Assembly (NCBI RefSeq): GCF_000819565.1 | Contig: NZ_CP004393.1 | Coordinates: forward strand, 992,001 to 1,056,000 | Length of the DNA stretch: 64,000 nt | DNA from: Celeribacter indicus | GTDB taxonomy: Bacteria; Pseudomonadota; Alphaproteobacteria; Rhodobacterales; Rhodobacteraceae | Direction: 5' to 3' | Shown here: positions 2,709 to 19,396 of the stretch, one piece after another | How positions within the stretch are numbered: position 1 is the first letter of the stretch | How the letters are laid out: each line of letters begins with the position of its first letter | Position numbers and translations under genes: made by a program | The notes under the pieces: generated by a model | Database searches by the model: none | The model's input: the letters and a program-made list of their open reading frames with translations, nothing else | What the model was told of the DNA's origin: nothing

Positions 2709-2739
2709 GTTGTAATTCCTCTAGCTACTTGAGCTTCAA
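2709..2739 (-). promoter_or_regulatory. MerR-type operator/promoter (site A)
   Basis: Read on the minus strand: -35 TTGAAG (2734-2739), exactly 19 bp holding CTCAAGTAGCTAGAGG, and -10 TACAAC (2709-2714). The overlong spacer with an imperfect dyad inside it is the hallmark of promoters activated by MerR-family regulators. It points at the CAP lipoprotein and L,D-transpeptidase operon. Five sites of the same build occur in this window. Confidence 0.75.
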
Positions 2740-2873
2740 TACCGGAAACGCCCATTCGGGCCGTATCTCACGGGAAGTTCAGAGATTGTGAAGATGGCCG
2801 GTGCAAGAACACTGCCCAGAACCGGCCTGATCTGGGCCAGGCTGGATACAGGAAGTCGAGACCGCGCAATCCT

Positions 2874-3482
2874 TCACGTCAGGATGCGGCGGATTTTCGG
2901 GACTGCGAATTGCCGATCCTCATGGAAGTCAATGATACCGGCAAAACTTCCGTCAGCACGGAACAGGAAGACGCCGGCAGTGTGATTCATGGTGTAATCA
3001 CCATCCTCACGCTCGATGCGCTCATAGCGGATACGAAAGTCCGCCGCGGCCTGCGCAATCTGTGCGTCGCTTCCTGTCAGCCCGAGGATGCGTGGATCGA
3101 ACATCGCTACATATTCAGCAAGAACTTCAGGCGTATCCCGCGCAGGATCAACCGAGATCAGCGCCACGGTGAGCTGTTCGGCGTCGTCACCCAATTCTTC
3201 GAGCCAGAGCGCGATATCCATCAATGTGGTCGGGCAGACGTCCGGGCACCAGGTAAAGCCGAAGAACACCATGGCCGGGCGCCCAAGCCAGTTCTGGGCG
3301 GTGACCAAACGACCCTGATGATCGGTTAGCCGCCAGCCCATCGCCTGAAACGGCAGGGGCAGCACCGGGTTAAGGCTTGAGGTCTCGTCTCCGCGGCTGC
3401 GCCAGGCACCAAGGGCCAGGGTGCCGGCCATTGCGGCCAGCACGCCGCCCGCGCCAAGAATCAGTTGGCGTCTGTCAGGCAT
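2874..3482 (-). CDS. SCO1/SenC family copper chaperone (second copy)
   Basis: A 202-residue thioredoxin-fold protein with a Tat-like N-terminus (MPDRRQLILGAGGVL) and a membrane-anchor stretch. It has the SCO copper-binding motif CPDVCPTT (CxxxC at about residue 78) and a downstream conserved His in YTMNHTAGVFLF. SCO proteins deliver copper to, or keep reduced the thiols of, cytochrome oxidase CuA sites; some act in redox defence. The start overlaps the PCuAC gene by 22 bp. It is the last gene of a four-gene unit (small membrane protein, SCO, PCuAC, SCO) read from the operator at 4766-4796. No oxidase with a CuA site lies in the window, so the client is unknown. Confidence 0.9.
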   Translation of the reverse strand: MPDRRQLILGAGGVLAAMAGTLALGAWRSRGDETSSLNPVLPLPFQAMGWRLTDHQGRLVTAQNWLGRPAMVFFGFTWCPDVCPTTLMDIALWLEELGDDAEQLTVALISVDPARDTPEVLAEYVAMFDPRILGLTGSDAQIAQAAADFRIRYERIEREDGDYTMNHTAGVFLFRADGSFAGIIDFHEDRQFAVPKIRRILT

Positions 3483-3937
3483 TCCGCTCCCCTTGCAGTC
3501 ATAGCGGTGACCGCAACATCGACAGTCACCTCTCCTGCCTTCTCGAAGGTCAGGACCATCGGATAGGTTTCACCCTGCGCGAGCGCCTGCGTCAGGTCCA
3601 TCAGCATCCCATGATAGCCACCGGGGGCCAGCGCGACCGATCCGCCTGCCGGGACGGGTATCCGCATGGCGTGCGGCATGCTGGCAACCCCATCCGTTAC
3701 CACCGTTTCATGCAGCATCGGCATCCGCGAGACCGGAGTGGCAATATCCAGCAATGCATCGTCTTCGTTGCCGGTATTCGAGATCGTCGCGTAGAATACG
3801 GCGGGCCGGTTCATACCGATGGTGGCACGCGACCAGGCTGCGCTCACGGTCAGATCGCCGGTTTGCCAGATGGGGCATTCGGCCAGGGCGGTCGAGGCGA
3901 GAAATACCAACGGCATGGCGAGAGCGGGAATGCGCAT
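3461..3937 (-). CDS. PCuAC-type periplasmic copper chaperone
   Basis: A 158-residue protein with a cleavable signal peptide (MRIPALAMPLVFLASTALA then ECPIW). The body matches the PCuAC/DUF461 copper-chaperone family: VSAAWSRATIGMNRPAVFYATI, and the Cu(I)-ligand pattern with MLHETV, SMPHAM and YHGMLM. Family members hand copper to SCO proteins or directly to CuA centres in the periplasm. The gene lies between two SCO genes: its start is 3 bp after the upstream SCO stop, and its stop overlaps the downstream SCO start by 22 bp. This strongly implies one copper-delivery operon. A short extra segment between signal and domain contains another Cys (AECPIW), plus a Cys near the C-terminus. Confidence 0.92.
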   Translation of the reverse strand: MRIPALAMPLVFLASTALAECPIWQTGDLTVSAAWSRATIGMNRPAVFYATISNTGNEDDALLDIATPVSRMPMLHETVVTDGVASMPHAMRIPVPAGGSVALAPGGYHGMLMDLTQALAQGETYPMVLTFEKAGEVTVDVAVTAMTARGAECLTDAN

Positions 3938-3940
3938 GGC

Positions 3941-4534
3941 TCAGAACCTTTCTTTCAGATCGCTCAGAATATCTTCGGCGGGAGTGCCATAGGCATATTG
4001 GCGCAACCATTGCCCGTCCGGCCCGATAAGGAAAAGACCCGGGCTGTGCGACATGGTGTAGCCATCGGGCGCGGCATCATCTTCTTCGCGTTCAAAATAG
4101 ATGCGAAAGCTGCTGGCCGCAGCCGCTGTCGCCACTTGATCGCCGGCAAGCCCAAGAATGGCAGGATGAAAAGCCGCAGTGTAATCATCGATTCCCAGAG
4201 CGCGGTCGCGTTCGGGGTCGATGGATATGAAGATGGGCTGCACTTGACCGGCATCCGAGCCCAGATCCTCCATCACCTGCGCGACCTCTGACAGGGTTGT
4301 GGGGCAGACATCGGGGCAATTGGTGAAACCGAAGAACACCAGCAAATACCGGCCCCGGAACTCGGCGCTCCCGCGCTGTTGTCCTGCTTCGTCAGGCAAG
4401 GAGAAAACCGGTCGAAACTCGGTCTCGGTCAAGACAGCTGGCGCAGGTGGTTCCTGAAGCTTCCAGATGGAAAACGCAGCTGTTGCTGCAAGCGCAGCCG
4501 ACCAAAGGACGATCTGGATTGTGCGAAGACGCAT
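3941..4534 (-). CDS. SCO1/SenC family copper chaperone (first copy)
   Basis: A 197-residue membrane-anchored thioredoxin-fold protein. A single N-terminal transmembrane helix (IQIVLWSAALAATAAFSIW) is followed by FRPVFSLPDEAG, the copper motif CPDVCPTT and the conserved His in YTMSHSPGLFLIGPDG. ATG 4534 is chosen because it gives the canonical short N-terminus before the anchor; longer frames add unrelated residues. It starts 11 bp after a small membrane-protein gene and is followed 3 bp later by PCuAC. Having two SCO paralogues flanking PCuAC is unusual and suggests division of labour, for instance metallation versus thiol reduction, which is inference only. Confidence 0.9.
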   Translation of the reverse strand: MRLRTIQIVLWSAALAATAAFSIWKLQEPPAPAVLTETEFRPVFSLPDEAGQQRGSAEFRGRYLLVFFGFTNCPDVCPTTLSEVAQVMEDLGSDAGQVQPIFISIDPERDRALGIDDYTAAFHPAILGLAGDQVATAAAASSFRIYFEREEDDAAPDGYTMSHSPGLFLIGPDGQWLRQYAYGTPAEDILSDLKERF

Positions 4535-4545
4535 CCGGCACCCAC

Positions 4546-4710
4546 TCAGGAAAGGCGAAGTAAAAGAATACCTGCGAACATGGCGACCAGGGCGAATGCC
4601 AACCCGAAGCCTGCAGCGTATTGCAAGATGTCCAGGAGCTTTCCTCCGCGCCTCCGGGCAACAAACGCCCCCCACCCGGCGCCAATCGCCAGTCCCATTG
4701 CAGCAATCAC
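4546..4710 (-). CDS. Small membrane protein of unknown function
   Basis: A short glycine/alanine-rich protein with two hydrophobic segments (VIAAMGLAIGAGWGAF and AAGFGLAFALVAMFAGILLL) separated by the basic stretch RRRGGK. The family was not recognised. The start is uncertain. GTG 4710 and ATG 4698 both give a plausible N-terminal helix; a TTG at 4758 would be nearly leaderless because the predicted promoter -10 is at 4766-4771. It is the first gene after the MerR-type operator at 4766-4796 and sits 11 bp before the SCO gene. A role in the copper-chaperone operon is inferred from position only. Confidence 0.55.
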   Translation of the reverse strand: MIAAMGLAIGAGWGAFVARRRGGKLLDILQYAAGFGLAFALVAMFAGILLLRLS

Positions 4711-4765: not shown

Positions 4766-4796
4766 GCTCTACACCCTCAACCTGCTAGAGCTTCAA
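4766..4796 (-). promoter_or_regulatory. MerR-type operator/promoter (site B)
   Basis: Minus-strand reading: -35 TTGAAG (4791-4796), a 19 bp spacer starting CTCTAGCAGG, and -10 TAGAGC (4766-4771). It lies in the short gap between the stop of the DsbA gene and the small membrane-protein/SCO/PCuAC operon and faces the latter. The dyad is weaker than at the zinc exporter genes. Confidence 0.65.
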
Positions 4797-4823: not shown

Positions 4824-5495
4824 TCAGACCTCGGCCTCTACGGCACTGCGAACTGCCGAAATGAGTGCATTGAAGCTCTCCACATTGAGAGGCTGTCCTT
4901 GCAGGAAGAAGGTCGGGGTCGCGCGAACGCCGAGGGTTTCGATATCCGCACGATCCTGGTTGAGGATCGCCACCGTGCCAGGGGCGCGAGTCTCGATATC
5001 CCGGTTGGCAATGTTCAGCCCTGCCTGCGCCGCTGCCGCCCAGGCAATATCGAGGTTTGGCCCGTCGTGCAGCGCCCAGTTCGGCTGGGTTTCCAGCAGG
5101 ATGTTCAGCACCGGCTCGAACAGGTTCTGACGGCGCGCAGCTTCGAGAATGGCCACCGCCTCGTCCGATCCCTGATGGAAGGCCGCATAGCGCATGACGA
5201 TGCGCAGATCATTCGGGAACTCATCGCGCAATTGTTTGAGCACAGGATGGAAGGCGCGGCAGGCCTCGCAGGACGGGTCGAAGAATTCGACGAGCGTGAC
5301 CTTTGCATCCGACGGGCCAAGCACGGGGGCAGCCGGGCGCAGCAGGACCGAGTTCAGATCCGGCACGGCTGCTGCGCGGGCCGCAGCCTCGGCTGCCGCC
5401 TCGCGAGCCCGCTGATCGCGGATATACCAGCTGCCACCTGCAAAGGCGGCAAGGCCAAGGGCGCTGGCACCGAGAAGAAGAGTGCGGCGGTTCAT
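4824..5495 (-). CDS. DsbA/DsbG-like periplasmic thiol oxidoreductase
   Basis: A 223-residue thioredoxin-superfamily protein. The N-terminal membrane anchor or signal (RTLLLGASALGLAAFAGGSW) is followed by an alanine-rich helix, then VTLVEFFDPSCEACRAF with active-site CEAC at about residues 79-82 and the cis-proline loop GVRATPTFFLQGQPL. It probably introduces or rearranges disulfides in exported proteins. It overlaps dsbB by 4 bp (ATGA), so the two are translationally coupled and are likely a redox pair. It is the last gene of a five-gene unit headed by a zntA-like ATPase. Metal ions attack periplasmic thiols, which would explain its placement under a metal-responsive promoter. Confidence 0.88.
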   Translation of the reverse strand: MNRRTLLLGASALGLAAFAGGSWYIRDQRAREAAAEAAARAAAVPDLNSVLLRPAAPVLGPSDAKVTLVEFFDPSCEACRAFHPVLKQLRDEFPNDLRIVMRYAAFHQGSDEAVAILEAARRQNLFEPVLNILLETQPNWALHDGPNLDIAWAAAAQAGLNIANRDIETRAPGTVAILNQDRADIETLGVRATPTFFLQGQPLNVESFNALISAVRSAVEAEV

Positions 5496-5923
5496 CGGGT
5501 TTCTCCTTTGGTCAGAGGTGGGCCTTTCGGCGCAAGCAGGATGGCAATCGCGGCGAATGCAGCCAGCGACAGGTATGGGATCGGCAGGCCAAGGATGCTC
5601 TGGCCCGTGCGGTCGGTGCAGGAGGGACCGTTTTGCGTGCAGGGCACCAGTGGCTCGGCGATCAGCCCGGCATAGAGCCCGGAATGATAGCCCGCGATGA
5701 CAAGACCGATGAGAGCCAGCGGCAGGGCATAGAGCCGCCCCCTCGGGTCATCGGACCAGAGCGCCATGCCCAGCACCGCCACCAGCGGGAACATGGCGAT
5801 GCGCTGGTACCAGCAGAGCGTGCAGGGCATCTGGCCCAGCACTTCACCGATGAACAGCGCCGACAGCGTGGCCGTCAGCGCGATCAGGAAAGCCAGCGTC
5901 TGGCGCGTTGCGAGGTCAGGCAT
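5492..5923 (-). CDS. dsbB: DsbB-like disulfide bond formation protein
   Basis: A 143-residue four-helix membrane protein with the two DsbB cysteine pairs: CTLC in the first periplasmic loop (GQMPCTLCWYQRIAMFP) and the second pair in the loop VPCTQNGPSCTDRTGQS. These relay electrons from the DsbA partner to quinone. ATG 5923 is chosen because it starts a typical short N-terminus (MPDLATRQ) before the first helix. It overlaps lspA by 8 bp at its start and the DsbA gene by 4 bp at its end. Its presence in a zinc/cadmium exporter operon is the notable point. Confidence 0.9.
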   Translation of the reverse strand: MPDLATRQTLAFLIALTATLSALFIGEVLGQMPCTLCWYQRIAMFPLVAVLGMALWSDDPRGRLYALPLALIGLVIAGYHSGLYAGLIAEPLVPCTQNGPSCTDRTGQSILGLPIPYLSLAAFAAIAILLAPKGPPLTKGETR

Positions 5924-6389
5924 TTTTCGCCTCCTTCGAGCCCCGGAACCCGGCGAAAAGGATCGCCACGACGCCGAGGAAAATCGCGATATCCGCACCG
6001 TTGAAGGTGGGCCAGTGCCAGTCCCGCCAGTAGAAATCCAGAAAATCTGTCACAGCGCCCTGGCGCAGCCTGTCAAGGATATTGCCCGCCGATCCGCCGG
6101 TGATCAGGGCGAAACCAGCGGCCTCCAGGGGTAGTTTCGCGCGCAGGCCCATCCAGGCAAGGCCCAGTGTCAGCACCCCGGTCAGCGCCGCCATCAAAAG
6201 CGGCGTATTGGCCATGATTCCCGAGAGCATTCCGAAACTCGCGCCGGTGTTGAAGCCCAGCGTCAGGTTGAAGCCCGGCAGGACCGGCACCGGCTGGAAG
6301 GGCGTCAGCCAGGCGAGCGCCATCCCCTTGGTGATCTGGTCGATCGTGAGCGCCAACAGCACAAAGCCAAAAAACAGAACTCTGCTCAT
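5916..6389 (-). CDS. lspA: Lipoprotein signal peptidase II
   Basis: A 157-residue membrane protein of normal LspA length with the conserved segments NLTLGFNTGASFG, GGSAGNILDRLRQGAVTDFLDF and the second catalytic aspartate in FNGADIAI. The two Asp residues of this aspartyl protease are therefore present. It cleaves prolipoproteins after lipid modification in the inner membrane. ATG 6389 overlaps the preceding methyltransferase-family gene by 4 bp. A dedicated lspA copy inside metal-resistance operons is a known arrangement (zinc/cadmium ATPase followed by lspA). Here it could serve the CAP lipoprotein at 2094-2681, which is inference. Confidence 0.93.
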   Translation of the reverse strand: MSRVLFFGFVLLALTIDQITKGMALAWLTPFQPVPVLPGFNLTLGFNTGASFGMLSGIMANTPLLMAALTGVLTLGLAWMGLRAKLPLEAAGFALITGGSAGNILDRLRQGAVTDFLDFYWRDWHWPTFNGADIAIFLGVVAILFAGFRGSKEAKNA

Positions 6390-7006
6390 GTTCTCTGACC
6401 CTTTACAAAGCCAATCCAGCGCGGCACGCGGGCCATGTAGCGGGCATAGCTCTCGCCATGGGTCGCCAGCAGAACAGATTCCTCGCTGCGGATCTGGATG
6501 CTGGCAGACCAGACCATCAGAACCGGCGCGACCAGGGTGGGCAGGCAGGGGACAGCAAGGGCCATCCCGGCCAGCACCATCGCCTGCCCGAGAAAGGTCG
6601 GGTTGCGAGACAGGCCGAACAGGCCCGTCGTCACCAGCGCCCCGGCCTGACCGGACTGGACTCCAACCCGCCATGACGCACCCATCCCCGATTGCGCCAG
6701 CAGCGCAAGCCCGGTGCCCAGCCATGCCAACGAGGCACCTGCTGCGCCGAGCAATGGCAGTCCGGTCTCGCTCCAGAGCGGATCGGTCTTGTGCAGGAGG
6801 GGCAAGGCCATCCACAGCAAAGGCCCGAGAAAGGCGAGCACGAAGGCGGCGCGAAACCCGAAAGCTGCAAGCCTTTCCCGCCCCTGGGCCGTGGCGAACA
6901 GCCAGACCCGTTGTTCTGACGATGCCAATCGCATGGTACCAAGTGCAAACAGGATCAGATAGAAGGAAAGGGCCGCAAAAGCGGCCCAGCCCATGGCTGA
7001 TGGCAT
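6386..7006 (-). CDS. Isoprenylcysteine carboxyl methyltransferase family membrane protein
   Basis: A 206-residue protein with about five hydrophobic helices and the PEMT/ICMT-type C-terminal motif GLFGLSRNPTFLGQAM, then SEESVLLATHGESYARYMARVPRWIGF. These residues bind S-adenosylmethionine in family members. The true substrate in bacteria is unknown; lipid or protein thiol/carboxyl methylation are possibilities. It starts 3 bp after the zntA-like stop and overlaps lspA by 4 bp. Such genes recur next to cadmium/zinc ATPases and lspA in proteobacterial metal-resistance loci. Confidence 0.85.
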   Translation of the reverse strand: MPSAMGWAAFAALSFYLILFALGTMRLASSEQRVWLFATAQGRERLAAFGFRAAFVLAFLGPLLWMALPLLHKTDPLWSETGLPLLGAAGASLAWLGTGLALLAQSGMGASWRVGVQSGQAGALVTTGLFGLSRNPTFLGQAMVLAGMALAVPCLPTLVAPVLMVWSASIQIRSEESVLLATHGESYARYMARVPRWIGFVKGQRT

Positions 7007-7009
7007 GGA

Positions 7010-9373
7010 TCAGCCCTCCTTCGATGGATCGAAGCGCAACAGGCGGAGGGCGTTCAGCGTCACCAGAACCGTTGCGCCGGTATCGGCGAGGATCGCGATC
7101 CAGAGTCCCGTGATCCCGAGAACCGAGGTCACGAGAAACACCGCCTTGAGCCCAAGCGCCAGCACCACATTCTGGCGGATATTGCCCATGGTGGCGCGCG
7201 CCAGCCGGATCAGCGCCGGCACATCGACAACCCGGTCCCGCAGGATCGCCGCATCGGCGGTTTCCAGCGCCACATCGGTGCCCGAGCCCATGGCCACGCC
7301 AACGCCCGCCTGTTTCAGCGCCGGGGCGTCATTGATGCCGTCGCCGATCATCATCACGCCGCCCTGCGCGACCATTTCACGGATCACGGTCAGCTTGTCT
7401 TCCGGCATCATCTCGGCGCGGAAATCCATGCCGAGTTGGTCTGCGATGGCTTCAGCTGTGCGGGGATTATCGCCAGTCAGGATCACAGGCGAGATCCCCA
7501 TGGCCTTGAGCTGGCGCATTGCATCGGCGGCATCGGTGCGCGGCTCGTCGCGCATGGCGATCAGACCAAGCGGCTGTCCCTCGCGGAACACCGCGACCAC
7601 GGTCTTGCCCTCGGATTCGAGTTCTGTGGCACGGCGGATATGCTCGCCCGCCAGGCCGCGCACCTCAGAAGCGTGGCGCGGTGAGGAAACCCAGGCTTTG
7701 GCACCACCGACCAGAGCCTCGACCCCCTTGCCGACCATGGCGCGGGCATCACGCGCAGGCAACGCCTCGACCCCCGCCGCCTCAGCGCGTTTCAGGATCG
7801 CCAGCGCCAGCGGATGCGACGATCCGGTTTCCACGCCTGCCGCGACCGCCAGCAGATCGCTTTCCGCGACATCGGGGGCGGTGACGACATCCGTCACGCG
7901 CGGCTTGCCATGGGTCAGGGTGCCGGTCTTGTCGAAAGCGATGCGGCTGACATGGGCGGCGGCCTCGATCACCGCGCCGCCCTTCATCAACAGGCCCTTC
8001 CTTGCGCCCGACGACAGGGCAGAGGCGATGGAGGCCGGGACCGAAATCACCAGCGCACAGGGGCAGCCGATTAGCAAAAGCGCGAGGCCGCGATAGACCC
8101 AGGTATCCCAGTCGGCGCCCATGGCCAGCGGCGGGATCAGGATCACCAGCGCCGAGACGGCGACAATGGCGGGCATGTACCAACGCGAGAACCGGTCGAT
8201 GAACCGCTCGGTCGGCGCGCGGGCCTCCTCGGCCTCTTCGACCAGTTGGATGATGCGGCTGATTGTGTTGTCGGCGGCAGCTTTGGTCACCGTGATGCGC
8301 AGCACGGCTTCGGTATTGATCGAGCCGGCGAAGACATTTTCACCCGGCCCGCGCGTGACCGGCACGCTTTCGCCGGTGACGGGGCTTTCATCGATGCCAG
8401 AGGTGCCCTCGGCGATCTCGCCATCCGCCGGAATGCGGTCCCCCGGGCGCACCAGAACACGTTGATTGATCTGCAGGCTTTCGGCGGACACTTCGCGGGT
8501 CTTGCCGTTTTCCTCGAGAAGCGCAGTTTTCGGCACCAGACTGGCCAGCGCGCGGATGCTGTCGCGCGCCTTGCCGGCGGCCACACCCTCCAGCACCTCA
8601 CCCACAGCAAACAGGAATACGACCAGCGCCGCCTCTTCCGCCGCGCCGATGAACAGCGCGCCCACGGCGGCGATGGTCATCAGGCTTTCGATGGTGAAGG
8701 GCTGGCCAAGGCGCAGTGCCTCGAACGCACGTTTGGCGACTGGCGCGACCCCGATCACACAGGCAAGCGTAAAGGCCCAATAGCCCCATTCGGTTGAGGT
8801 CAGCAGTTCAAAGATCCATGCCGCAGCCAACAGGATGCCGGTAAAGATCACCAACTGGCCCTTTTTCGTCTGATACCAGCTTTTGCCGCGATCTGCCGGA
8901 TCGTAATGCACATGGCCCGGGCTGCCATGGCCGCTGTCGGACACGACCGCATTTTCCGCTTTGCTGTGAGACCGGCCTGCATGGTCATGTTCGTGGGCAG
9001 AATGATCATGGCCCGAATTGTCATGATCACTGTGGTCATGCCCTGCATGATCGTGATCGTCGTGGTCATGGCCCTTGCAATCGGGGCCATGCACATGGGC
9101 GGGTTTGGTACTTTCGGGCAGCACGAAGGTCTTCTTGCCCTCGGGTTTCTGGCCACGTGGAACGATGCCGAACCCGAGCCGTTTGACGATGCCCTCGATC
9201 TCGGACGTGTCCGTCGTGCCCGGCACAAGATTGAGCGACAGCCGCTCGGTCATCAGCGCGACCCTAACCTCGCTGACCCCGGGCAGTTTCTCGACCGCTT
9301 TCGTCACCTTGACGGTGCAGGAGGCGCAATCCATCCCGCTGACCGTCCATTCCTGCCGCTTCGGCTCGCTCAT
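7010..9373 (-). CDS. zntA: Zn2+/Cd2+/Pb2+ exporting P1B-type ATPase
   Basis: A 787-residue heavy-metal ATPase. An N-terminal HMA domain has GMDCASC (about residues 14-20). It is followed by a striking His/Asp-rich linker (about residues 85-135, repeated GHDHDDHDH-like units) that probably buffers zinc. Then come the CPC ion-binding motif in GCPCALVIS, the phosphorylation motif DKTGTLT, SSHPLA, TGDN and GDGINDAPAL. ATG 9373 is chosen because AGGAG precedes it and the longer frame runs into the operator. Transcription is predicted from the MerR-type promoter at 9421-9451. It heads an operon with an ICMT-family gene, lspA, dsbB and dsbA. The CPC motif and linker favour zinc/cadmium/lead over copper. 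Confidence 0.95.
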   Translation of the reverse strand: MSEPKRQEWTVSGMDCASCTVKVTKAVEKLPGVSEVRVALMTERLSLNLVPGTTDTSEIEGIVKRLGFGIVPRGQKPEGKKTFVLPESTKPAHVHGPDCKGHDHDDHDHAGHDHSDHDNSGHDHSAHEHDHAGRSHSKAENAVVSDSGHGSPGHVHYDPADRGKSWYQTKKGQLVIFTGILLAAAWIFELLTSTEWGYWAFTLACVIGVAPVAKRAFEALRLGQPFTIESLMTIAAVGALFIGAAEEAALVVFLFAVGEVLEGVAAGKARDSIRALASLVPKTALLEENGKTREVSAESLQINQRVLVRPGDRIPADGEIAEGTSGIDESPVTGESVPVTRGPGENVFAGSINTEAVLRITVTKAAADNTISRIIQLVEEAEEARAPTERFIDRFSRWYMPAIVAVSALVILIPPLAMGADWDTWVYRGLALLLIGCPCALVISVPASIASALSSGARKGLLMKGGAVIEAAAHVSRIAFDKTGTLTHGKPRVTDVVTAPDVAESDLLAVAAGVETGSSHPLALAILKRAEAAGVEALPARDARAMVGKGVEALVGGAKAWVSSPRHASEVRGLAGEHIRRATELESEGKTVVAVFREGQPLGLIAMRDEPRTDAADAMRQLKAMGISPVILTGDNPRTAEAIADQLGMDFRAEMMPEDKLTVIREMVAQGGVMMIGDGINDAPALKQAGVGVAMGSGTDVALETADAAILRDRVVDVPALIRLARATMGNIRQNVVLALGLKAVFLVTSVLGITGLWIAILADTGATVLVTLNALRLLRFDPSKEG

Positions 9374-9420: not shown

Positions 9421-9451
9421 TTGCTACAACCTCTGGCAACTAGAGGTTCAA
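9421..9451 (-). promoter_or_regulatory. MerR-type operator/promoter (site C, zntA operon)
   Basis: Minus strand: -35 TTGAAC (9446-9451), a 19 bp spacer with the dyad CCTCTAGTTGCCAGAGG, and -10 TAGCAA (9421-9426). This resembles ZntR/CadR/PbrR-type sites. It fits a zinc/cadmium exporter operon and is the best functional anchor for the other five sites. Confidence 0.85.
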
Positions 9452-9464: not shown

Positions 9465-9830
9465 TCAGTCGAACAGCCGTCGCAGGAAGGAACCATGGTG
9501 ATCGCGCCGGTCTCTGCCGTGGCCGGAATCATGGCCCGAGTCGTGCCCGTGACCACGCGACCGACCACCGTGATCGCCGTCGCAATCATCACCATACCGG
9601 GCGCGCTGATCGTTGCGCGGTGGCTCTGCCCGCCGGGGTGCGGGCATTTCGACCGTGCTGCGCTCGATGATCTTGTCCAACTCACCCCGGTCCAGCCAGA
9701 CGCCGCGGCATTGCGGGCAATAGTCGATCTCTATGCCCTGGCGGTCAGACATTACCAGATCGACCCGGCAATGGGGACAGGGAAAACCACCACTGCGGCG
9801 GGAGGGTTCGGATGCAAAAACAGGGTCCAT
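9465..9830 (-). CDS. zf-TFIIB domain protein with His/Asp-rich tail
   Basis: A 121-residue protein. The N-terminal half has two CxxC knuckles (CPHC and CPQCRGVWLDRGELDKII) typical of the TFIIB zinc-ribbon-like family PF13453. The C-terminal half is a basic and His/Asp-rich tail (GHGHDSGHDSGHGRDRRDHHG) likely to bind metal. ATG 9830 is 45 bp downstream of a MerR-type promoter at 9875-9905. A zinc store, sensor or chaperone is plausible given the tail and the regulation, but no biochemical role is established for the family. It lies between the zntA-like operon and the CDF exporter. Confidence 0.85.
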   Translation of the reverse strand: MDPVFASEPSRRSGGFPCPHCRVDLVMSDRQGIEIDYCPQCRGVWLDRGELDKIIERSTVEMPAPRRAEPPRNDQRARYGDDCDGDHGGRSRGHGHDSGHDSGHGRDRRDHHGSFLRRLFD

Positions 9831-9874: not shown

Positions 9875-9905
9875 TTCCTGCATCCTCCAGTAGCTAGAGG
9901 TTCAA
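9875..9905 (-). promoter_or_regulatory. MerR-type operator/promoter (site D)
   Basis: Minus strand: -35 TTGAAC (9900-9905), a 19 bp spacer with CCTCTAGCTACTGGAGG, then a poor -10 (CAGGAA, 9875-9880). The dyad is as good as at the exporter genes. It faces the zinc-ribbon protein gene. Confidence 0.7.
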
Positions 9906-9945: not shown

Positions 9946-10881
9946 CTAGAGCCCTTCGCCCCGCCAGAGCTCGCCGGGCGGATCGACCTGAACCGTCACG
10001 TGATCAATATCGTGACGTGCCTTCAGCCAGTCGGCGACGAGCACGGGAAGCGACAGCGGATCCGTTCCGGGCGCGGGAGTCACATGCACCGTGGCCACAA
10101 CCGTCTCATCCGTCAGGGTCCAGGCGTGGAAATGCCCGGCCTCGGCCACTTCGGGCAGTTCTTCGGAAAGTTTCGCTTCGGCCTCGCGCGCGTCGAACCC
10201 GCGTGGAACCGCCTGCAACAGAACCCGCAGCGAGTCGCGCACCAGCCCCCATGCCGAGCGCACCACCAGCACAGAGACCAGCACCGACAGGAGCGGGTCA
10301 AGGACTGTCCAGCCCGTCAGCATGATGCCGATGGCCGCCGCAATCGCTCCGACCGAGCCCAGCAGGTCGCCGATCACATGCAGCATTGCGCCGCGCAGGT
10401 TGCTATCACCCTTACGACCGCGTGACAGGATCCAGACGCCGCCAAGGTTTACGAGGAGGCCGATTGTTGCCACGATCAGCATCGGCCAGGCCATGACCTC
10501 AACCGGCGCGTTGAAACGCTGGATCGCTTCCCATGTGATCCAAGCCACCAAAAGGAGCAGAGATGCGCCATTGGCCAGCGCTGCCAGCACACGCACCCGG
10601 TGAAAACCGTAGGTGCGCGTGCCGTCCGCCGGGCGTCGCGCGACTCGATAGGCGATCAATGCCAGAAGCAGCGCCGCCGCATCTGACACCATATGGCCGG
10701 AATCCGCGATGAGCGCGAGCGAGCCGGAAATCCAGCCACCCACCGCCTGTATGGCTGCGTAAGATGCGGTGAAGAAAAATACAAAGCGAATGCGCCGTTC
10801 GTTATCGGCCGTCACGACCTCGGCGTGATCGTGGCCATCATTCGGGCCGTGGGCCGCGGGATCCGATCCAGAGGTGCTCAT
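9946..10881 (-). CDS. Cation diffusion facilitator family zinc/cadmium exporter
   Basis: A 311-residue CDF protein with a His-containing N-terminus (HGPNDGHDHAEV) and six predicted transmembrane helices. The two metal-site HxxxD motifs are HMVSD in helix 2 and HVIGD in helix 5. A cytosolic ferredoxin-like domain ends the protein (HFHAWTLTDETVVATVHV). It exports Zn2+ or Cd2+ in exchange for protons. ATG 10881 has AGGAG 7 bp upstream and is preferred to a longer frame. A MerR-type promoter lies at 10929-10959. The gene complements the P-type ATPase, giving both a secondary and a primary exporter under the same type of operator. Confidence 0.93.
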   Translation of the reverse strand: MSTSGSDPAAHGPNDGHDHAEVVTADNERRIRFVFFFTASYAAIQAVGGWISGSLALIADSGHMVSDAAALLLALIAYRVARRPADGTRTYGFHRVRVLAALANGASLLLLVAWITWEAIQRFNAPVEVMAWPMLIVATIGLLVNLGGVWILSRGRKGDSNLRGAMLHVIGDLLGSVGAIAAAIGIMLTGWTVLDPLLSVLVSVLVVRSAWGLVRDSLRVLLQAVPRGFDAREAEAKLSEELPEVAEAGHFHAWTLTDETVVATVHVTPAPGTDPLSLPVLVADWLKARHDIDHVTVQVDPPGELWRGEGL

Positions 10882-10928: not shown

Positions 10929-10959
10929 CCTATGACACCTCTAGTAACTATAGGTGCAA
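10929..10959 (-). promoter_or_regulatory. MerR-type operator/promoter (site E, CDF gene)
   Basis: Minus strand: -35 TTGCAC (10954-10959), a 19 bp spacer with CTATAGTTACTAGAGG, and -10 CATAGG (10929-10934). The half-site CTATAG resembles known CadR/PbrR sites. It lies 48 bp before the CDF start codon. Confidence 0.78.
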
Positions 10960-12468: not shown

Positions 12469-12475
12469 GCTCGGG

Positions 12476-14080
12476 TCACTCCGCTGGCTTGATATCGGTG
12501 GCAAGCACGCCGGAAAGGCGGGCCTGATGCGCTTTGTTCCAGGCGTCGGTTTCTACCGCATCCTGCACCGGGCCTTTGCGGATCGCGGCCAGCATCAGCC
12601 GGACCTCGATCACCAGAAGCACGGTGTAAAGCGCGACGAAGCCCGCCAGCGTGATCAGAAGATCTGCGACAGACAGGCGGCTTGCCGACAGGAAGGTCGG
12701 AAGCAGACCATCCACCGTCCAGGGCTGGCGCCCGAACTCGGCCACGAACCAGCCGGCCTCGATGGCGATCCAGGGCACCGGGATCATCAGGACCGCGCCG
12801 CGCAGGACCCACGTGGGATAGCGCCCCTGGCGGAAATTGGTGCGCCAGAACATGTAGGCCAGGAAGCCGAGCATCAGGAAACCCGCGCCGACCATGATGC
12901 GGAAGGACCAGAAGAGCGGCCAGACCGTCGGGATCGTATCTGCAGCGGCCTGGGCGATCTGTGCCTCGGTGGCGTCGCGCGGATCCTCGACATAGCGCAT
13001 CAGCAGCATACCGTAGCCTAGGTTGCCGCCGTTCGCCTCGAAGGTTTCGCGCACCTCGGGCGGCGTAGCCGCACGCTGGGTGCGAATGGTCTGGAGTGCG
13101 TCCCAGGCGATGATGCCGGAGCGGACACGCTCCTCGGACTCCTTCACCAGATCTTCGATGCCGGCAATTTCCTCGGTCAGGGACCGAGTGCCGATCAGCC
13201 CCATCACATAGGGAACATGCACCGCATAGCGCGTCTCGCGCGCCTCCTGGTCGGGCAGACCGAAAAGCGTGAAGGATGCGGGGGCTGCCTGCGTTTCCCA
13301 CATGCCCTCCATCGCGGCCAGCTTCATGCGTTGCGCATGGGTGGTCTCGTAGCCGCTTTCATCCCCCAGAACGATCACCGCCATGACAGAGGCCAGACCG
13401 AAAGAGCAGGCCACCGTGATCGACCGCCGCGCCAGTTCGGTGTGGCGCCCCTTGAGCAGGAACCAGCTTGAAACCCCGATGACGAAGATCGAGGCAGCGA
13501 CATAGCCCGCGCTGACGGTATGGACGAATTTCGCCTGGGCGACCGGGTTGAAGATGACCTCAAAGAAGCTTTCGATCTCCATCCGCATCGTATCGGGGTT
13601 GAACACCGCACCGACCGGGTTCTGCATCCAGCCATTGGCGATCAGGATCCACAGCGCCGAGAAATTGCTGCCGATCGCCACGCACCAGGCCACGATGCAA
13701 TGGGCGCGGGCCGAAAGCCGGTCCCAGCCGAAGAACCAGAGGCCCACAAAGGTCGCCTCAAGGAAAAAGGCCATCAGCCCTTCCAGCGCCAGCGGAGCCC
13801 CGAACACATCGCCGACATAGACGCTGTAATAGCTCCAGTTCATGCCGAACTGGAATTCCATCGTGATCCCGGTGGCGACGCCCAGCACGAAATTGATGCC
13901 GAAAAGCGTGCCCCAGAATTTCGTCATCTGCCGCCATATGGGGCGGCGGGTCATGACATAGACCGTCTCCATGATCGCCACGAGCAGCGAGAGGCCAAGC
14001 GTCAGCGGCACGAAGATGAAGTGATACATGGCCGTCACGGCGAATTGCAGTCGTGACAGATCAACGACATCAATTTCCAT
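12476..14080 (-). CDS. cydA: Cytochrome bd ubiquinol oxidase subunit I
   Basis: A 534-residue protein with the CydA landmarks. An N-terminal haem-ligand His sits in [20 protein letters not shown], a second His in [12 protein letters not shown], and the quinol-binding region is [16 protein letters not shown]. It oxidises quinol and reduces oxygen at haems b558, b595 and d. ATG 14080 gives the standard start [12 protein letters not shown]; a longer frame adds unrelated sequence. It overlaps the 3' end of cydC by 11 bp, linking exporter and oxidase genes in one transcript. Confidence 0.95.
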
Positions 14081-15806
14081 CAGTGGCCTCCTTTCTGAAG
14101 GGGGCGGTGCCCCGGACTGTGATGTGGGGAAGGGGTGGCGCGGCTGGTGGCATCTGACTGTCACGGTCAGCCGGTGGCAGTTGCAGGCGCCGGTCGGCAC
14201 CGGCCAGATCGCTTTCGCGATGCGAGACGAGAATGATCCCCGACCGGGGCAGACAGGCGCGCAGCCCCTGCAGGACAGACGCCGCATTAGCCGGGTCCAG
14301 CCCCTCGGTCGGTTCGTCGATCAGAAGGAGGTCCGGCTGCCGCAACAGCGCGCGCGCTAGCGCGAGACGCCGGGTCTCGCCGCCCGAAAGGCCCGCGCCA
14401 CGCTCGCCCAATTGCCGCACGAGCCCTTCGGGCGTCGTAAGAAAATGCGACAGGGCCACAGCCTGCATCACCGCCGCAAGTGCCGCGTCATCGGCCTGCG
14501 GATCGGCAATGCGGAGATTGTTGGCCAGCGATCCGGCGATCAGCGCGGGCCGCTGCGGCACCAGCGTCAGCCGGGCGCGCAGATCGGATTCGGGCCATTC
14601 GCACAGATCGCGGCCCAGAAGGGTGATCTCGCCCGGCTTTGACGCGGCTGCTCCGGCCAACATTGCCAGAAGGGTGGATTTGCCCGCGCCCGATGGCGCA
14701 TGGATCGCCAGTGTTTCGCCAGGGTACAGCGTGAAATCCAGAGGCGCGCTCAGCTCCCTGCCGCTGCCATGGGCGCGCACGACAAGCTTGTTGACGGTCA
14801 GGAGTGCTGCGCCGGGGCGAAGGGGTGCCGGCATCTCCGCCGTCGCCGGTTGGGCATCCGGAACCCGCCGCGCAAGATTGCGGGCCGCAAGTTCTATCCG
14901 ACCCCGCTCGGACCAGCCACGCCACAACAGCCGAAGGCATTCGGTCAGGGCAAGATTGATCAGGATCACCGTCAGCAGCAGCGCCGGCGAAAGGCTGCCC
15001 CCTAGGATCAGCGTCGCGGCAATCGCCATGCTCGGCGTGAGGTGCATCACCACCCCCGCCAGACGACCCATCAGATCCTGACCGCTGCGCGCCAGAGCCG
15101 CGTGGGCGATCGCCGCCTTTGTCTGGTCAAGCCCCTGCGGCAGCAGCCCCTGCATCAGCAGATCGCCGCGCAGCGCCAGCAGCCCAGCCGAGCGTGACCG
15201 GATCGCCTGCAAAGCCGCCTCTTCCCGACGGGCCTGGGCGCGCTGTCCGGCCCCGGCCAGCCGCGCAAGGCACAGGATTCCCATCGCCCAGATGGCCGCC
15301 AAGGCCCCGGCAAGCGCCCCGCCGCCGATGATCCAGATCACCGCCAGCCCGACCAGCAGCGACAGCGCCGCCGCAATCGTCGGGAAGACCAGACGGATCA
15401 GCAGCCCTTCAAGCGCCTCCACATCGGCGGTCAGCCGGTTAAGCATCTGCGCCGAATGGCGCCGCGCCAGCGTAGGAAGCGGCACAGCGGAAAGATCACG
15501 GAACAGCCGCAGCCGCAGCCGTTCCAGCGCCCGCAGCGTAGCATCATGCCCCAGCAGCCGCTCGCCATAGCGCGAGGCGGCGCGGATCAGCGTCAGCGTT
15601 CGGATGCCACCCGAGGGGCGCAGAAAATCGAAGACAAGGCCAAGCCCGGCCGCACCCGCCATCGCGGATGCGGTGATGAACCATCCCGAGAGGCCCAGAA
15701 GGGCGGCCCCCGCAAGCGGCACCATCGCCGCTAGAACGGCCGCGCGCCGCAAATGACGACCATTGCCCGCGTTCATTTCCCGGATGACGGCGGCAAGATG
15801 TCTCAT
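14070..15806 (-). CDS. cydC: Thiol reductant ABC exporter subunit CydC
   Basis: A 578-residue fused permease-ATPase. An N-terminal six-helix domain (about residues 1-320) is followed by an ATPase with Walker A APSGAGKSTLL, signature LSGGETRRLALARALL and Walker B LLIDEPTEGLD. CydDC exports glutathione or cysteine to the periplasm and is needed to assemble cytochrome bd. It overlaps cydD by 4 bp and cydA by 11 bp. Confidence 0.92.
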   Translation of the reverse strand: MRHLAAVIREMNAGNGRHLRRAAVLAAMVPLAGAALLGLSGWFITASAMAGAAGLGLVFDFLRPSGGIRTLTLIRAASRYGERLLGHDATLRALERLRLRLFRDLSAVPLPTLARRHSAQMLNRLTADVEALEGLLIRLVFPTIAAALSLLVGLAVIWIIGGGALAGALAAIWAMGILCLARLAGAGQRAQARREEAALQAIRSRSAGLLALRGDLLMQGLLPQGLDQTKAAIAHAALARSGQDLMGRLAGVVMHLTPSMAIAATLILGGSLSPALLLTVILINLALTECLRLLWRGWSERGRIELAARNLARRVPDAQPATAEMPAPLRPGAALLTVNKLVVRAHGSGRELSAPLDFTLYPGETLAIHAPSGAGKSTLLAMLAGAAASKPGEITLLGRDLCEWPESDLRARLTLVPQRPALIAGSLANNLRIADPQADDAALAAVMQAVALSHFLTTPEGLVRQLGERGAGLSGGETRRLALARALLRQPDLLLIDEPTEGLDPANAASVLQGLRACLPRSGIILVSHRESDLAGADRRLQLPPADRDSQMPPAAPPLPHITVRGTAPFRKEATDGN

Positions 15807-17488
15807 GCAGCCTCCCTCCCGGCCCGCAGCGCGATGACGTGATCCATCGCCCCGATCAGCCGCGCGTCATGTGTCGCGATCAGCAGCGCGCTGCCCAATT
15901 CGCGCAGTGCCAGAAGCGCCCCGGTAATCTCTTGCGCGGAGGTCGCGTCCAGATCCGCAGTCGGCTCATCCGCCAGCAGAAGCGTCGGGGGGGCAAGCAG
16001 CGCGCGGGCGATCATCAGCCTGCGCGCCTCACCGCCCGAGACACCGCCGCCGGTCTCGCCAAGACGGGTGCCAAGGCCCTGCGGCAGCGCGGCCAGGACA
16101 TGACCGGCGCGCGCGCGATGCAGCGCCTCGGTCAGGGTGTCGTCAGTGGCATCCGGTGCGGCAAGGCGCAGCCAGCGGCGCAGGCTCATCGCCGGAAAGC
16201 GCGGCTGTTGCGGCAGCCAGCCTATTGCACCGCGCAGACCTGTAGCTGTCGCGTCCGAGAGACGGATATCGCCATAGCGGATGGTGCCGGACAGGGCCGG
16301 GCGCAGTCCCGCAAGCGTGCCGAGCAATGTGGTCTTTCCGATCCCGCTTGGCCCCGTGACCGCCGTGGCCGTCCGGGGCAACAGGCATCCGTCCGGCACA
16401 GCAATCGCAGCATCCTGCCCGGGCGAAATTACCAGCCCTTGCCAGCGCAGCGGCAAGGGCCTGTCGCAGCGGGCAGGAGGGGCTGCGCCCTCGCCCAGGA
16501 TGCGCGGCCCCTCCTGCGCCAGAGCGGCCCGCGCCTCGTCCATCACCGCCATTGCCGCCGCCCGATCATGCCAGGACGCTGCCAGATCCCGCATCGGCTG
16601 ATAAAACTCCGGCACGATCAGCAGAACGAAGATCGCCCCGAAGGCGCTGATCTGTCCGCCCCACCCGCCCCAGGACACCAGCCCAAGAAGCGAGACCCCC
16701 ATCTGCACCGCGACCAGCGCCACCCCGAGCGAGGCCATCAGCTCCAGCACCGTCGAGGACAGGAAGGCAAGGCGCAGAACCTTCATCACCCGTTCGCGCA
16801 GATCAGTGGCGCGGGTTTCCAGATCGGCTCCGGCCTGGCCCACGGCGCCCAGAAACCGCAAGTCGGCAAGGGCCGCGATGCGGTCCATCAGCAGCCGGTT
16901 CAGCGCCCCCGCTTCGACCAGATGATCACGCGAGGCCGCCTGCGCCGCATAGCCGATCAACATCATGAAGACCGGGATCAGCGGCCCTGTGACCGCAAGT
17001 GCCAGCGCCGCTGTCCAGCTCTGGCTGGCGACCAGCCCCAGGATCACCAACGGCACGATCCGGGCACGGGCCATGGCGGGCAGGAACTTCTCCAGCCAGG
17101 GGCGCAGCATAGCCGCTTTCTCGCCCATCAAAGCTGCCTGTGCGGCCGCATCCTCGCCCGGTCCCGAGGGGGAGCGCCAGACCGCCGCCTCCAGCAGCTG
17201 CAATCGCAGATCGGCAATGCTGCGCGATGCCTCGACCTGCGCCGCCGCTTCGGCCCGCCAGTCCAGACCCGCGCGCACCCCGCTGAGCAGGATGAACAGC
17301 AGCGCCGCATACCAGGCCGGCACCTCGCCCGCGATCAGATCCGATATGGCCCAAGCGATCAGCGCCGCCTGCACCGGCCAGACAAGCACGGACAAAATAG
17401 AAAGGATTGCGGCCCTCCGCAGTGCCGGAGATCCGTCCAGCCTTGCAAGCGTACGGCTTCCATGCCGAGTGGATCGGTTAACAGTCAT
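15803..17488 (-). CDS. cydD: Thiol reductant ABC exporter subunit CydD
   Basis: A 561-residue half transporter with about six membrane helices and an ATPase domain: Walker A GPSGIGKTTLLGTLAG, signature VSGGEARRLMIARALL and Walker B LLLADEPTADLD. ATG 17488 overlaps nothing upstream and is the first gene of cydDCABX. The ATG of cydC overlaps its end by 4 bp. Its pairing with a bd oxidase is conserved in proteobacteria. A periplasmic thiol exporter beside dsbA/dsbB and copper chaperones fits a general theme of envelope redox control. Confidence 0.92.
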   Translation of the reverse strand: MTVNRSTRHGSRTLARLDGSPALRRAAILSILSVLVWPVQAALIAWAISDLIAGEVPAWYAALLFILLSGVRAGLDWRAEAAAQVEASRSIADLRLQLLEAAVWRSPSGPGEDAAAQAALMGEKAAMLRPWLEKFLPAMARARIVPLVILGLVASQSWTAALALAVTGPLIPVFMMLIGYAAQAASRDHLVEAGALNRLLMDRIAALADLRFLGAVGQAGADLETRATDLRERVMKVLRLAFLSSTVLELMASLGVALVAVQMGVSLLGLVSWGGWGGQISAFGAIFVLLIVPEFYQPMRDLAASWHDRAAAMAVMDEARAALAQEGPRILGEGAAPPARCDRPLPLRWQGLVISPGQDAAIAVPDGCLLPRTATAVTGPSGIGKTTLLGTLAGLRPALSGTIRYGDIRLSDATATGLRGAIGWLPQQPRFPAMSLRRWLRLAAPDATDDTLTEALHRARAGHVLAALPQGLGTRLGETGGGVSGGEARRLMIARALLAPPTLLLADEPTADLDATSAQEITGALLALRELGSALLIATHDARLIGAMDHVIALRAGREAA

Positions 17489-17823
17489 GAGTTGTCCGCA
17501 TGGTTCATCAGAGCGACCACTTCAAAAGTGGCCACATGCTGGTTCTGCCCAAATAACTCATCTGATCTGCAGGATTTGACGATTGGACATTATGTCTCTG
17601 ACAATTCGCCGCAGCAGCCAAAGTTCAATTTAACGCGACCTCAAAACTCCAGGGAAACGATCAAGGTCTTGGGCTGAATTTCACCAAGCCAGCTCATAAA
17701 ATTTTCAGCGCTATGGTGGCCAAGCATTCTGAGCATCCAAACCAATGCCTCGAGCCTGCGCCCTACATGACAAGTCGCAAAGTCTGACTGGAGGCTAGAA
17801 GCCGTCAGCAGTTGACCTCTGGG
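17489..17823. other. Divergent cydD/mntH intergenic region
   Basis: About 335 bp with no supported gene. The minus-strand 83-codon frame at 17641-17892 crosses the mntH operator and start codon and is probably spurious. No clean FNR box (TTGAT-N4-ATCAA) was found before cydD. The main structured element is the palindrome described next. Confidence 0.5.
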
Positions 17824-17867
17824 CTCTGTTGCGAATAACTTGCAACTGCAAATCATTCGCAACAGAG
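17824..17867 (+). promoter_or_regulatory. 44 bp near-perfect palindrome, probable Mur/Fur-type operator of mntH
   Basis: The arms CTCTGTTGCGAAT and ATTCGCAACAGAG are perfect inverted repeats. The centre splits into two abutting 17 bp boxes, TTGCGAATAACTTGCAA (17829-17845) and CTGCAAATCATTCGCAA (17846-17862). Both have the TTGC/GCAA edges seen in alphaproteobacterial Mur/Fur boxes. It ends 5 bp before the mntH ATG, so repressor binding would cover the promoter and start region. Confidence 0.7.
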
Positions 17868-17872
17868 TCGCC

Positions 17873-19225
17873 ATGACAGTCAAGGCCCCCACTCCACGCT
17901 TCCAACCGTCCGAAGGCTGGCGCAGCCAAAGCCCGATGCCCTCGCTGTCCGAGGTCTATGGCTCGGTCGTGGTGCCGCAGGGGCGCACGCCTTGGCGGCG
18001 GTTTATGGCCTTTGTCGGGCCGGGCTATCTGGTCGCCGTAGGCTACATGGACCCAGGCAACTGGGCCACCTCGCTGGCTGGCGGGGCGAAATTCGGCTAT
18101 ACGCTGCTGTTCGTTGCGCTGTTGTCGAACATCATGGCGATCCTGCTGCAATCCTTGTGCGCGCGGCTTGCCATCGGGTCGGGGCGCGATCTGGCGCAGG
18201 CCTGCCGCGACGCCTTTCCGTCCTGGGTCTCCTGGCCGCTCTGGCTCTTTGCCGAAGCCGCGATCATCGCCACCGATCTGGCCGAGGTGATCGGCGTCGC
18301 CATCGGCCTGAACCTGCTGTTCGGCATCCCGCTGGAGATCGGGGTGTTCCTGACTGCCGTCGACGTGTTCCTGATCCTCTGGCTGCAAAACCGCGGCTTT
18401 CGTTGGGTCGAGGCCTTTGTCATCACGCTGCTTGTGGTGATTTCGGCCTGTTTCTTCGTGCAGATCGCCATGGCCGACCCGGACTGGAATGCGGTGATCA
18501 TAGGTTTTGCCCCTTCGGTCGAGATCGCGACCAACCCCGAAATGCTATATCTTGCGCTTGGCATCATCGGGGCAACGGTGATGCCGCATAACCTCTATCT
18601 GCATTCGGGCATCGTGCAGACACGTAACTGGGGCACCGCCCCCGACGCACGGCATCAGGCGCTGCGCATGGCGACATGGGATTCCACCATCGCGCTGATG
18701 CTGGCGCTGGTGATCAACGCCTCGATCCTGATCCTGGCGGCGGCCACCTTCCACTCAACCGGCAATACCGAGATCGTCGAGATAGATCAGGCCCATGCGC
18801 TGTTGGCCCCGCTTCTGGGTGGATCACTGGCGCCGACGCTGTTCGGTATTGCACTTCTGTGCTCGGGGCTGAACGCCACGGTGACTGCGACCATGGCTGG
18901 GCAGATCGTGATGGAGGGCTTCATCAATTTCCGCATCAGCCCGGTTCTCAGGCGGCTTATCACCCGCTCCATCGCCATCGTGCCGGCAGTGCTGGTTATC
19001 CTGATCTGGGGCAGCGCCGAGATGGGGCGACTTCTGATCCTCAGCCAGGTGGTACTGAGCTTTCAGTTGCCCTTTGCCATCGTGCCGCTGGTCATGTTCA
19101 CCGCCAGCCGGAAGAAGATGGGCGATCTGGTTGCGCCGCTTTGGCTGACCTCACTATGCGCCGTGATCGCCGTCACCATTATCTGGCTGAATCTCAACCT
19201 GCTGACATCCATCGCCGGGGGCTGA
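17873..19225 (+). CDS. mntH: NRAMP family Mn2+ (divalent metal) transporter
   Basis: A 450-residue, about 11-helix membrane protein with the NRAMP metal-site motif MDPGNWAT in helix 1 (after [10 protein letters not shown]) and [15 protein letters not shown] in helix 6. The A-x-x-M/P-H residues that bind Mn2+ are therefore present. It imports Mn2+ (also Fe2+) with protons. ATG 17873 is chosen: upstream alternatives fall inside the operator palindrome, and MTVKAP is a normal N-terminus. The leader is very short, consistent with the operator abutting the start. It sits between the cyd operon and a metal-regulated L,D-transpeptidase gene. Confidence 0.92.
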
Positions 19226-19365
19226 ACAGGAACCGTTGAGACCTTCGAATAGGTTGGGCAGGATTCTTTGTCTATTGGGTCTGGAATGAGCGGCACTGGC
19301 CAATCGCCTCCTGCTCACGAAGCCTCATATTCCTGTGAGGGCAGACGTCCAGCCACATATTGGTC

Positions 19366-19396
19366 TTGAACCTCAAGTAGCTAGAGGTCCTATCAC
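19366..19396 (+). promoter_or_regulatory. MerR-type operator/promoter (site F)
   Basis: Plus strand: -35 TTGAAC (19366-19371), a 19 bp spacer with CCTCAAGTAGCTAGAGG, and -10 TATCAC (19391-19396). It is almost identical in its core to site A, although the two lie about 17 kb apart and face opposite ways. Both precede L,D-transpeptidase units. It lies 110 bp before the start codon at 19507. Confidence 0.78.

Follow-up and report, generated by a model that had tools for sequence, protein, structure and literature searches.

One MerR-type operator before metal exporters and envelope-biogenesis genes in Celeribacter indicus, with a candidate regulator on a conjugative plasmid

Why would a single type of MerR operator stand before zinc exporters, copper chaperones and peptidoglycan enzymes alike? 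The question is raised by a 64,000-nucleotide stretch of Celeribacter indicus (NZ_CP004393.1, positions 992,001 to 1,056,000; hereafter the window), in which a sequence-only reading had described six promoters with 19-bp spacers. We found sites at all six positions, five on the minus strand and one (at 19366) on the plus strand, each with a TTGMAS −35 element, a spacer of exactly 19 bp, a −10-like hexamer and a dyad that is CTCTAG-N3-CTAGAG or near it; the description holds, with the amendments that the −35 element, otherwise TTGAAC-like (TTGAAG twice), is TTGCAC at the 10929 site and that two −10 elements are weak. On our best reading, the six are operators for a single activator of the MerR family, CadR/PbrR-like and of the divalent (Zn/Cd/Pb) type; they probably belong to a Zn/Cd-type regulon, spread on plasmids, that would export metal and deploy spare envelope-building enzymes. 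The sites, with their scores under the position weight matrix (PWM) described below, are as follows.

S1, 2709..2739, minus strand: TTGAAG-19-TACAAC, 38.7 bits; before a CAP-domain gene and a small L,D-transpeptidase gene
S2, 4766..4796, minus strand: TTGAAG-19-TAGAGC, 34.8 bits; before SCO-PCuAC-SCO
S3, 9421..9451, minus strand: TTGAAC-19-TAGCAA, 38.6 bits; before P1B ATPase-methyltransferase-LspA-DsbB-DsbA
S4, 9875..9905, minus strand: TTGAAC-19-CAGGAA, 35.8 bits; before a zinc-ribbon gene
S5, 10929..10959, minus strand: TTGCAC-19-CATAGG, 33.6 bits; before a CDF exporter gene
S6, 19366..19396, plus strand: TTGAAC-19-TATCAC, 40.3 bits; before a YcbB-type L,D-transpeptidase and an M23 gene

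A degenerate pattern written from these six sites alone has eight perfect matches in the 4.97-Mb genome, of which two lie on contig C3 and the rest are the six window sites themselves, and its reversed counterpart has none; neither the C3 matches nor the 133 matches in relatives described below played a part in writing it. The sequence-only reading had proposed such a genome-wide scan, and the window and C3 sites stand out in it. With two mismatches allowed there were 65 matches against 148 for the reversed pattern, and hence only matches with at most one mismatch, together with PWM scores, were used. The PWM, trained on 75 unique 33-base sites that all come from relatives and none from C. indicus itself, scores the six window sites at 33.6–40.3 bits; this scoring is partly circular over the first 22 positions, because the training sites came from the pattern written on the six, a reservation that counts against our reading and from which positions 23–33, the −10 region, are exempt. 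The only other window matches of at least 8 bits are four, which are the same palindromes on the opposite strand, and the best score in 60 windows simulated with a first-order Markov model was 12.0 bits. The pattern matches, the reversed controls and the PWM scores set against the simulated windows rule out a chance origin of the sites. The TA of the −10 element lies outside the search pattern, yet among the 75 unique sites the T is conserved in 93% and the A in 100%; circularity aside, independent support comes from this element, the C3 matches, the excess of sites in relatives and the identity of the genes behind them.

None of the genome's 12 matches to PF00376 lies within the window, so there is no MerR gene there, as the sequence-only reading had said in suggesting a search for a CadR/ZntR/PbrR-type gene with the site in its own promoter. 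We found a CadR/PbrR-like gene of this kind at C3:67264, with a perfect site at C3:67801 in its divergent promoter, which has the 19-bp spacer and dyad of CadR and PbrR promoters. At E ≤ 1e-35, no other gene of the genome matches the protein that it encodes. The best match of this protein in the Protein Data Bank is CadR chain 6jgv, followed by a second MerR-family chain, 5gpe; its C78, C113 and C121 align with cysteines of 6jgv that we take to be the metal ligands of CadR. These three residues and C133 are invariant in seven aligned sequences, the C3 MerR included, and a counterpart of C78 is absent from three CueR-like MerRs of this genome. Residue preferences of CadR-PbrR-like regulators have been published (PMC5045206, in part) and were not relied on, the mapping of positions being uncertain. 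The C3 MerR is the best candidate in this genome for the activator of the window sites.

Its gene content marks C3 as a conjugative RepABC plasmid: it starts with genes matching the ParA, RepB and RepC families, these align at 98.4% identity over 3.6 kb with the annotated repABC of Pseudosulfitobacter plasmids, and it carries relaxase and VirB4-, VirB10- and VirB11-type genes. Its metal module repeats the content of the window with different proteins. One operator stands before SCO-DsbB-DsbA-PCuAC-SCO-M23-DUF411-ZIP-LspA-Lnt, another before a P1B ATPase (562.6 bits to PRK11033 versus 360.9 to CopA PRK10671) and a third, with one pattern mismatch and 36.0 bits, before an L,D-transpeptidase; weaker sites precede a CcdA gene (19.3 bits) and a transglutaminase-CDF pair (11.1 bits). 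Over 9 kb the module (C3:67000-76000; L043:7000-16000) matches plasmids of Phaeobacter gallaeciensis, P. inhibens and Tritonibacter mobilis at 100% identity, which suggests very recent transfer. Strains with the plasmid module include Phaeobacter inhibens P24 and Dinoroseobacter shibae DFL 12. Since the plasmid has the candidate regulator as well as one copy of the programme, and the chromosome the six operators with a second copy, we infer that the C3 regulator should bind and control the window island in trans.

The reach into envelope enzymes that the sequence-only reading had proposed is seen on C3 and recurs in many relatives. Perfect pattern matches occur in 71 of 295 genomes of the family and number 141, compared with 27 when the pattern is reversed; eight of the 141 sites are those of C. 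indicus itself, and the regions of all 133 others were retrieved and their first genes labelled after the window or C3 protein that phmmer matched best. The genes directly behind the 141 sites are most often P1B ATPases (39), SCO (32) and L,D-transpeptidases (25, counting S1, where the CAP gene precedes the transpeptidase), followed by CDF (10) and transglutaminase-like genes (6) and, more rarely, DUF411 (2), PCuAC (2), M23 (1) and the zinc ribbon (1); one was labelled CydC, though its first open reading frame is without a Pfam match, 21 were unlabelled and one site had no first gene. Many copies are near-identical, so raw counts overstate independence; the 25 operator-linked L,D-transpeptidases fall into 13 clusters at 90% identity and into three at 50%. 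Pfam searches of 18 of the 21 unlabelled genes returned CDF (2), ArsP permease (2), plastocyanin, MerT or DctQ for seven, families unrelated to metal for another seven (EPSP synthase, acyl-CoA dehydrogenase and TPR among them) and no match for four. A MerR-adjacent operator also precedes 387-residue proteins in three regions (L063, L089 and L128), two of them ArsP_1-type permeases, apparently a further target class, and a plastocyanin-like copper protein is first behind the operator in genome G288 (L116:4861-5376).

A MerR of the C3 kind is present in 63 of the 71 genomes with a site and in 54 of the 224 without, a comparison that ignores relatedness and follows partly from adjacency; binomial and hypergeometric estimates were not taken as evidence, since they assume 4,900 genes and independent sites. 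Separately, we took from named records the best 80 of 576 confirmed MerR candidates; this set of loci overlaps in part with the PWM training genomes. Among these best 80, an operator of at least 20 bits lies divergent to the MerR gene in 74 and at least one operator is found in all 80; their labels include DsbA (71), SCO (70), M23 (66), Lnt (45), LspA (30) and two L,D-transpeptidase labels (32 each). Aurantimonas, Jiella, Fulvimarina, Oricola and a Kordiimonadales genome have related loci that contain the pump, Dsb, SCO or LspA parts.

The window's own units are linked to each other in one relative, G121, where separate operators stand before P1B-methyltransferase-LspA-DsbB-DsbA, before a YcbB-type transpeptidase and before SCO-PCuAC-SCO-M23. 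The YcbB-type protein there is 77% identical to that of the window and the gene order differs, and the three operator-led units thus provide an independent link. On plasmid unnamed2 of Gemmobacter aquarius (L154), a P1B-methyltransferase-LspA-DsbB-DsbA unit faces a divergent helix-turn-helix gene with a 33.1-bit site between them, an arrangement that suggests the window island may have evolved with a regulator of its own, as if since lost. The Pseudorhodobacter turbinis relative (L151) has no site of at least 9 bits in the surrounding 25 kb.

The genes behind the window operators were assigned by Pfam, with further evidence where given; the outer units extend beyond the span covered by the sequence-only reading, to 1493 and 22363.

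S1 unit
2094..2681, minus strand: CAP-domain protein (PF00188), first gene
1493..2077, minus strand: small YkuD L,D-transpeptidase; catalytic-type SNGC motif
S2 unit
3941..4534, minus strand: SCO1/SenC protein; CPDVCP
3461..3937, minus strand: PCu(A)C copper chaperone
2874..3482, minus strand: second SCO1/SenC protein; CPDVCP
S3 unit
7010..9373, minus strand: P1B ATPase (Pfam and NCBIfam); CPC motif
6386..7006, minus strand: PEMT/ICMT-like membrane methyltransferase
5916..6389, minus strand: LspA signal peptidase II, an extra copy by copy number
5492..5923, minus strand: DsbB, an extra copy by copy number
4824..5495, minus strand: DsbA-like thioredoxin; CEAC motif
S4 unit
9465..9830, minus strand: TFIIB-type zinc-ribbon protein; His/Asp-rich tail, from its sequence
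S5 unit
9946..10881, minus strand: CDF cation exporter
S6 unit
19507..21120, plus strand: YcbB-type L,D-transpeptidase (Scaffold, PG_binding and YkuD; SAGCIR), an extra copy with a paralogue at C1:2639347
21185..22363, plus strand: M23 metallopeptidase; HTGID

The exporters, copper chaperones, zinc-ribbon protein and two envelope units named by the sequence-only reading are all recovered by Pfam; what it had missed is that the P1B unit runs on through the methyltransferase, LspA, DsbB and DsbA. The window P1B ATPase, with CPC at 437, is of the Zn/Cd/Pb type: it scores 542.6 bits to TIGR01512 (cut-off 313.5) and 863.6 bits to PRK11033 (Zn/Cd/Hg/Pb), below that model's cut-off of 1005, with 338.6 bits to CopA PRK10671. 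The catalytic-type cysteine of the YkuD class (SxGC) is kept in the window and C3 L,D-transpeptidases; the motif of the small window enzyme reads SNGCVG and is without the arginine that we take to be usual in YkuD motifs.

The genome encodes three LspA, five SCO1, three DsbB, two Lnt and two YcbB-type transpeptidases (E ≤ 1e-40), and in each of the five families exactly one copy lies outside the operator-linked units, with no pattern match of up to two mismatches near any of these five; with one non-regulon copy per family, it is the regulon that supplies the further copies. Nearly every genome of the family (278 of 295) encodes a YcbB-type enzyme, and among the 30 best YcbB-type loci an operator was found only at those of the window and G121, the other 28 scoring at most 1.5 bits. 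Three of the genome's 11 YkuD genes are in operator-led units, a fourth (C3:83572) closely follows the P1B gene of C3 on its downstream side, and two of its seven M23 genes are operator-linked.

These observations suggest how the regulon would work. A rise in cytoplasmic Zn, Cd or Pb would lead the regulator to untwist the over-long, 19-bp-spaced promoters, which would then be induced together and yield the exporters (P1B ATPase and CDF) along with a second envelope-biogenesis set: L,D-transpeptidases, an M23 endopeptidase, LspA, DsbA/DsbB and SCO/PCuAC from the window, and a parallel set from C3 with Lnt, a further L,D-transpeptidase and, from a weaker site, CcdA. The spare enzymes would replace housekeeping copies poisoned by thiophilic metals. 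Many of the non-transport members are cysteine proteins (transpeptidases, DsbA, DsbB, CcdA, SCO and Lnt) or metal proteins (M23 and PCuAC), as expected if metal-poisoned enzymes are being replaced. The envelope part, which the sequence-only reading had described as repairing or hardening the envelope, is thus recast as a putative spare biogenesis set, which appears to fit the copy numbers better. A more specific version, which we put forward tentatively and at somewhat less than even chances, is target duplication: the conjugative plasmid would bring its host a sensor, pumps and metal-inducible spares of thiol- or metal-dependent envelope enzymes, covering peptidoglycan cross-linking, lipoprotein maturation, disulfide formation and copper loading of oxidases, to the host's presumed benefit, and the sensor would command a second, chromosomal copy as well.

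Several points weigh against the Zn/Cd-type, spare-enzyme reading. The −10 elements of S4 (CAGGAA) and S5 (CATAGG) are weak. The C3 MerR falls below every NCBIfam equivalog cut-off, and CueR gives its top score (TIGR02044, 120.3 bits; cut-off 147.4), with ZntR (TIGR02043, 105.9 bits; cut-off 167.95), MerR and CadR-PbrR (TIGR02047, 110.5 bits; cut-off 151.45) close behind; for this reason we term it CadR/PbrR-like only, and its metal specificity is soft. A clear operator was found at only one of the 29 other YcbB-type loci examined, and a YcbB-type gene on a Jannaschia plasmid has a weak site only (13.4 bits). None of the loci examined outside Rhodobacterales (Aurantimonas, Jiella, Fulvimarina, Oricola and Kordiimonadales) received a transpeptidase or M23 label. 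The idea of a poisoned thiol misses some members, since LspA belongs to the aspartyl proteases and M23 is a zinc-dependent enzyme; LspA may simply be needed in bulk. The presence of the copper proteins SCO and PCuAC does not follow directly from a Zn/Cd reading. Copper is reported to inhibit L,D-transpeptidases (Peters 2018, as cited in PMC6863773, in part), and a narrow literature search found no comparable inhibition by Zn or Cd, which is a prediction of our reading.

The last of these points favour a copper regulon of the CueR/HmrR kind, in which the SCO, PCuAC, Dsb and transpeptidase genes would answer copper damage: copper chaperones are among the first targets, and CueR is the regulator's top NCBIfam score. 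We regard this as improbable. The regulator has the CadR-aligned extra cysteine C78 that the genome's three CueR-like MerRs lack, both P1B ATPases prefer PRK11033 over CopA (863.6 versus 338.6 bits in the window, 562.6 versus 360.9 on C3), the box beside a CueR-like gene at C1:2899624 differs from the six (27.3 bits), and published HmrR/CueR sites, ACCTTCC(AG)..CTGGAAGG (PMC1526738, in part), are unlike those of the window; CueR/HmrR control was set aside on the missed NCBIfam cut-off, the presence of C78 and this difference in site. Only slightly less improbable is that C3 plays no role, the window being controlled by another MerR or carrying orphan operators whose regulator was lost. A second MerR with the same extra cysteine is encoded on C4 (C4:119912-120090), a further point against our choice of regulator, and the Gemmobacter unit with its divergent helix-turn-helix gene would accord with loss; the site near the C4 MerR is related but poor (13.0 bits), however, whereas the window sites match the DNA pattern of the C3 regulator's promoter, and that regulator has no second match in the genome at the threshold given above.

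Two further explanations concern the envelope genes themselves. The operators could matter for the exporters only, with the envelope genes hitch-hiking on a mobile metal-resistance island and their sites being relics or accidents. The genes do travel on mobile modules, as the 9-kb identity of the C3 module shows, and near-identical copies inflate the counts; still, operators stand before three types of L,D-transpeptidase, 28 of the 30 best-scoring YcbB-type loci lack one, the −10 element is conserved too, and the YcbB-type gene of G121 stands, in another gene order, behind an operator of its own, all of which makes this improbable. The hardening model suggested by the sequence-only reading, in which the envelope enzymes would alter the wall by 3-3 cross-links and trimming against metal entry and not stand in for poisoned copies, is a stronger contender that we nonetheless consider unlikely, at about one chance in a few. 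The transpeptidases and the M23 enzyme could remodel peptidoglycan, and the E. coli Cpx response induces LdtD (PMC6863773, in part); yet hardening accounts neither for the additional LspA, Lnt, DsbB and SCO genes, families otherwise represented by one copy in the genome, nor for DsbA, CcdA and PCuAC.

How does the proposed regulon compare with known systems? According to a 2006 comparative study, MerR, CadR, PbrR, ZntR, CueR and HmrR systems are usually made up of genes for transporters and regulators, with few of them per genome; its main text, searched for transpeptidase, disulfide and SCO1, gave no match (PMC1526738, in part). The CadR-cadA and ZntR-zntA systems share with ours a MerR activator with CadR-type cysteines, a dyad in a long-spacer promoter, and P1B and CDF targets; the C. 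indicus system differs in having roughly a dozen envelope genes behind the shared operator type and its best candidate regulator on another replicon. The ZntR site is a 22-bp palindrome in a 20-bp spacer (PMC1526738, in part), whereas the window spacers are all 19 bp. The pbr operon of Cupriavidus metallidurans pMOL30 (PbrR, PbrA, PbrB and PbrC) is likewise a plasmid-borne MerR regulon with a P1B ATPase and a predicted signal peptidase, PbrC, but no L,D-transpeptidase, M23, Dsb or SCO is described for it in the same source (PMC1526738, in part). CueR/HmrR regulons have the 19-bp spacer and copper chaperones among their targets; their dyad is TTCCAG..CTGGAA rather than CTCTAG..CTAGAG, and the CueR-like regulators of this genome have no third cysteine, unlike the C3 MerR. 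The Cpx response, a two-component system, is an envelope stress system and not a MerR metal sensor; the likeness lies in its stress-induced L,D-transpeptidase (LdtD; PMC6863773, in part).

No title or opening abstract among the papers listed by our open-access literature searches describes the envelope part of such a regulon. One operator type is common to pumps and to enzymes of peptidoglycan cross-linking, lipoprotein maturation, disulfide formation and cytochrome oxidase assembly, on plasmids and other replicons of many Rhodobacterales; the regulon thereby names concrete candidates for the periplasmic targets that metal breaks, and is a candidate example of a chromosomal island under the control of a plasmid-borne regulator.

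The island holds further genes that we left out of the regulon. Within it (window 11308-17488) are the cydDCAB genes for cytochrome bd and the ABC transporter needed for its assembly, followed by an Nramp importer gene at 17840; both were omitted because their promoters have no PWM site of at least 8 bits. One relative (G239; L096:9639) does have an operator, of 42.6 bits, before a unit that includes cydA and cydB, and on Haematobacter pOT1-8 (L149) cyd genes are divergent from an operator-linked P1B operon. A long inverted repeat (ctctgttgcgaat...attcgcaacagag) at window 17820-17870, right before the Nramp gene, has by eye the look of a Fur/Mur/MntR-type box. The right edge of the island (22678-24552) carries a PIN-domain gene, a stretch resembling a groEL fragment (approximately 23060-23616, by eye) and a transposase with an rve domain.

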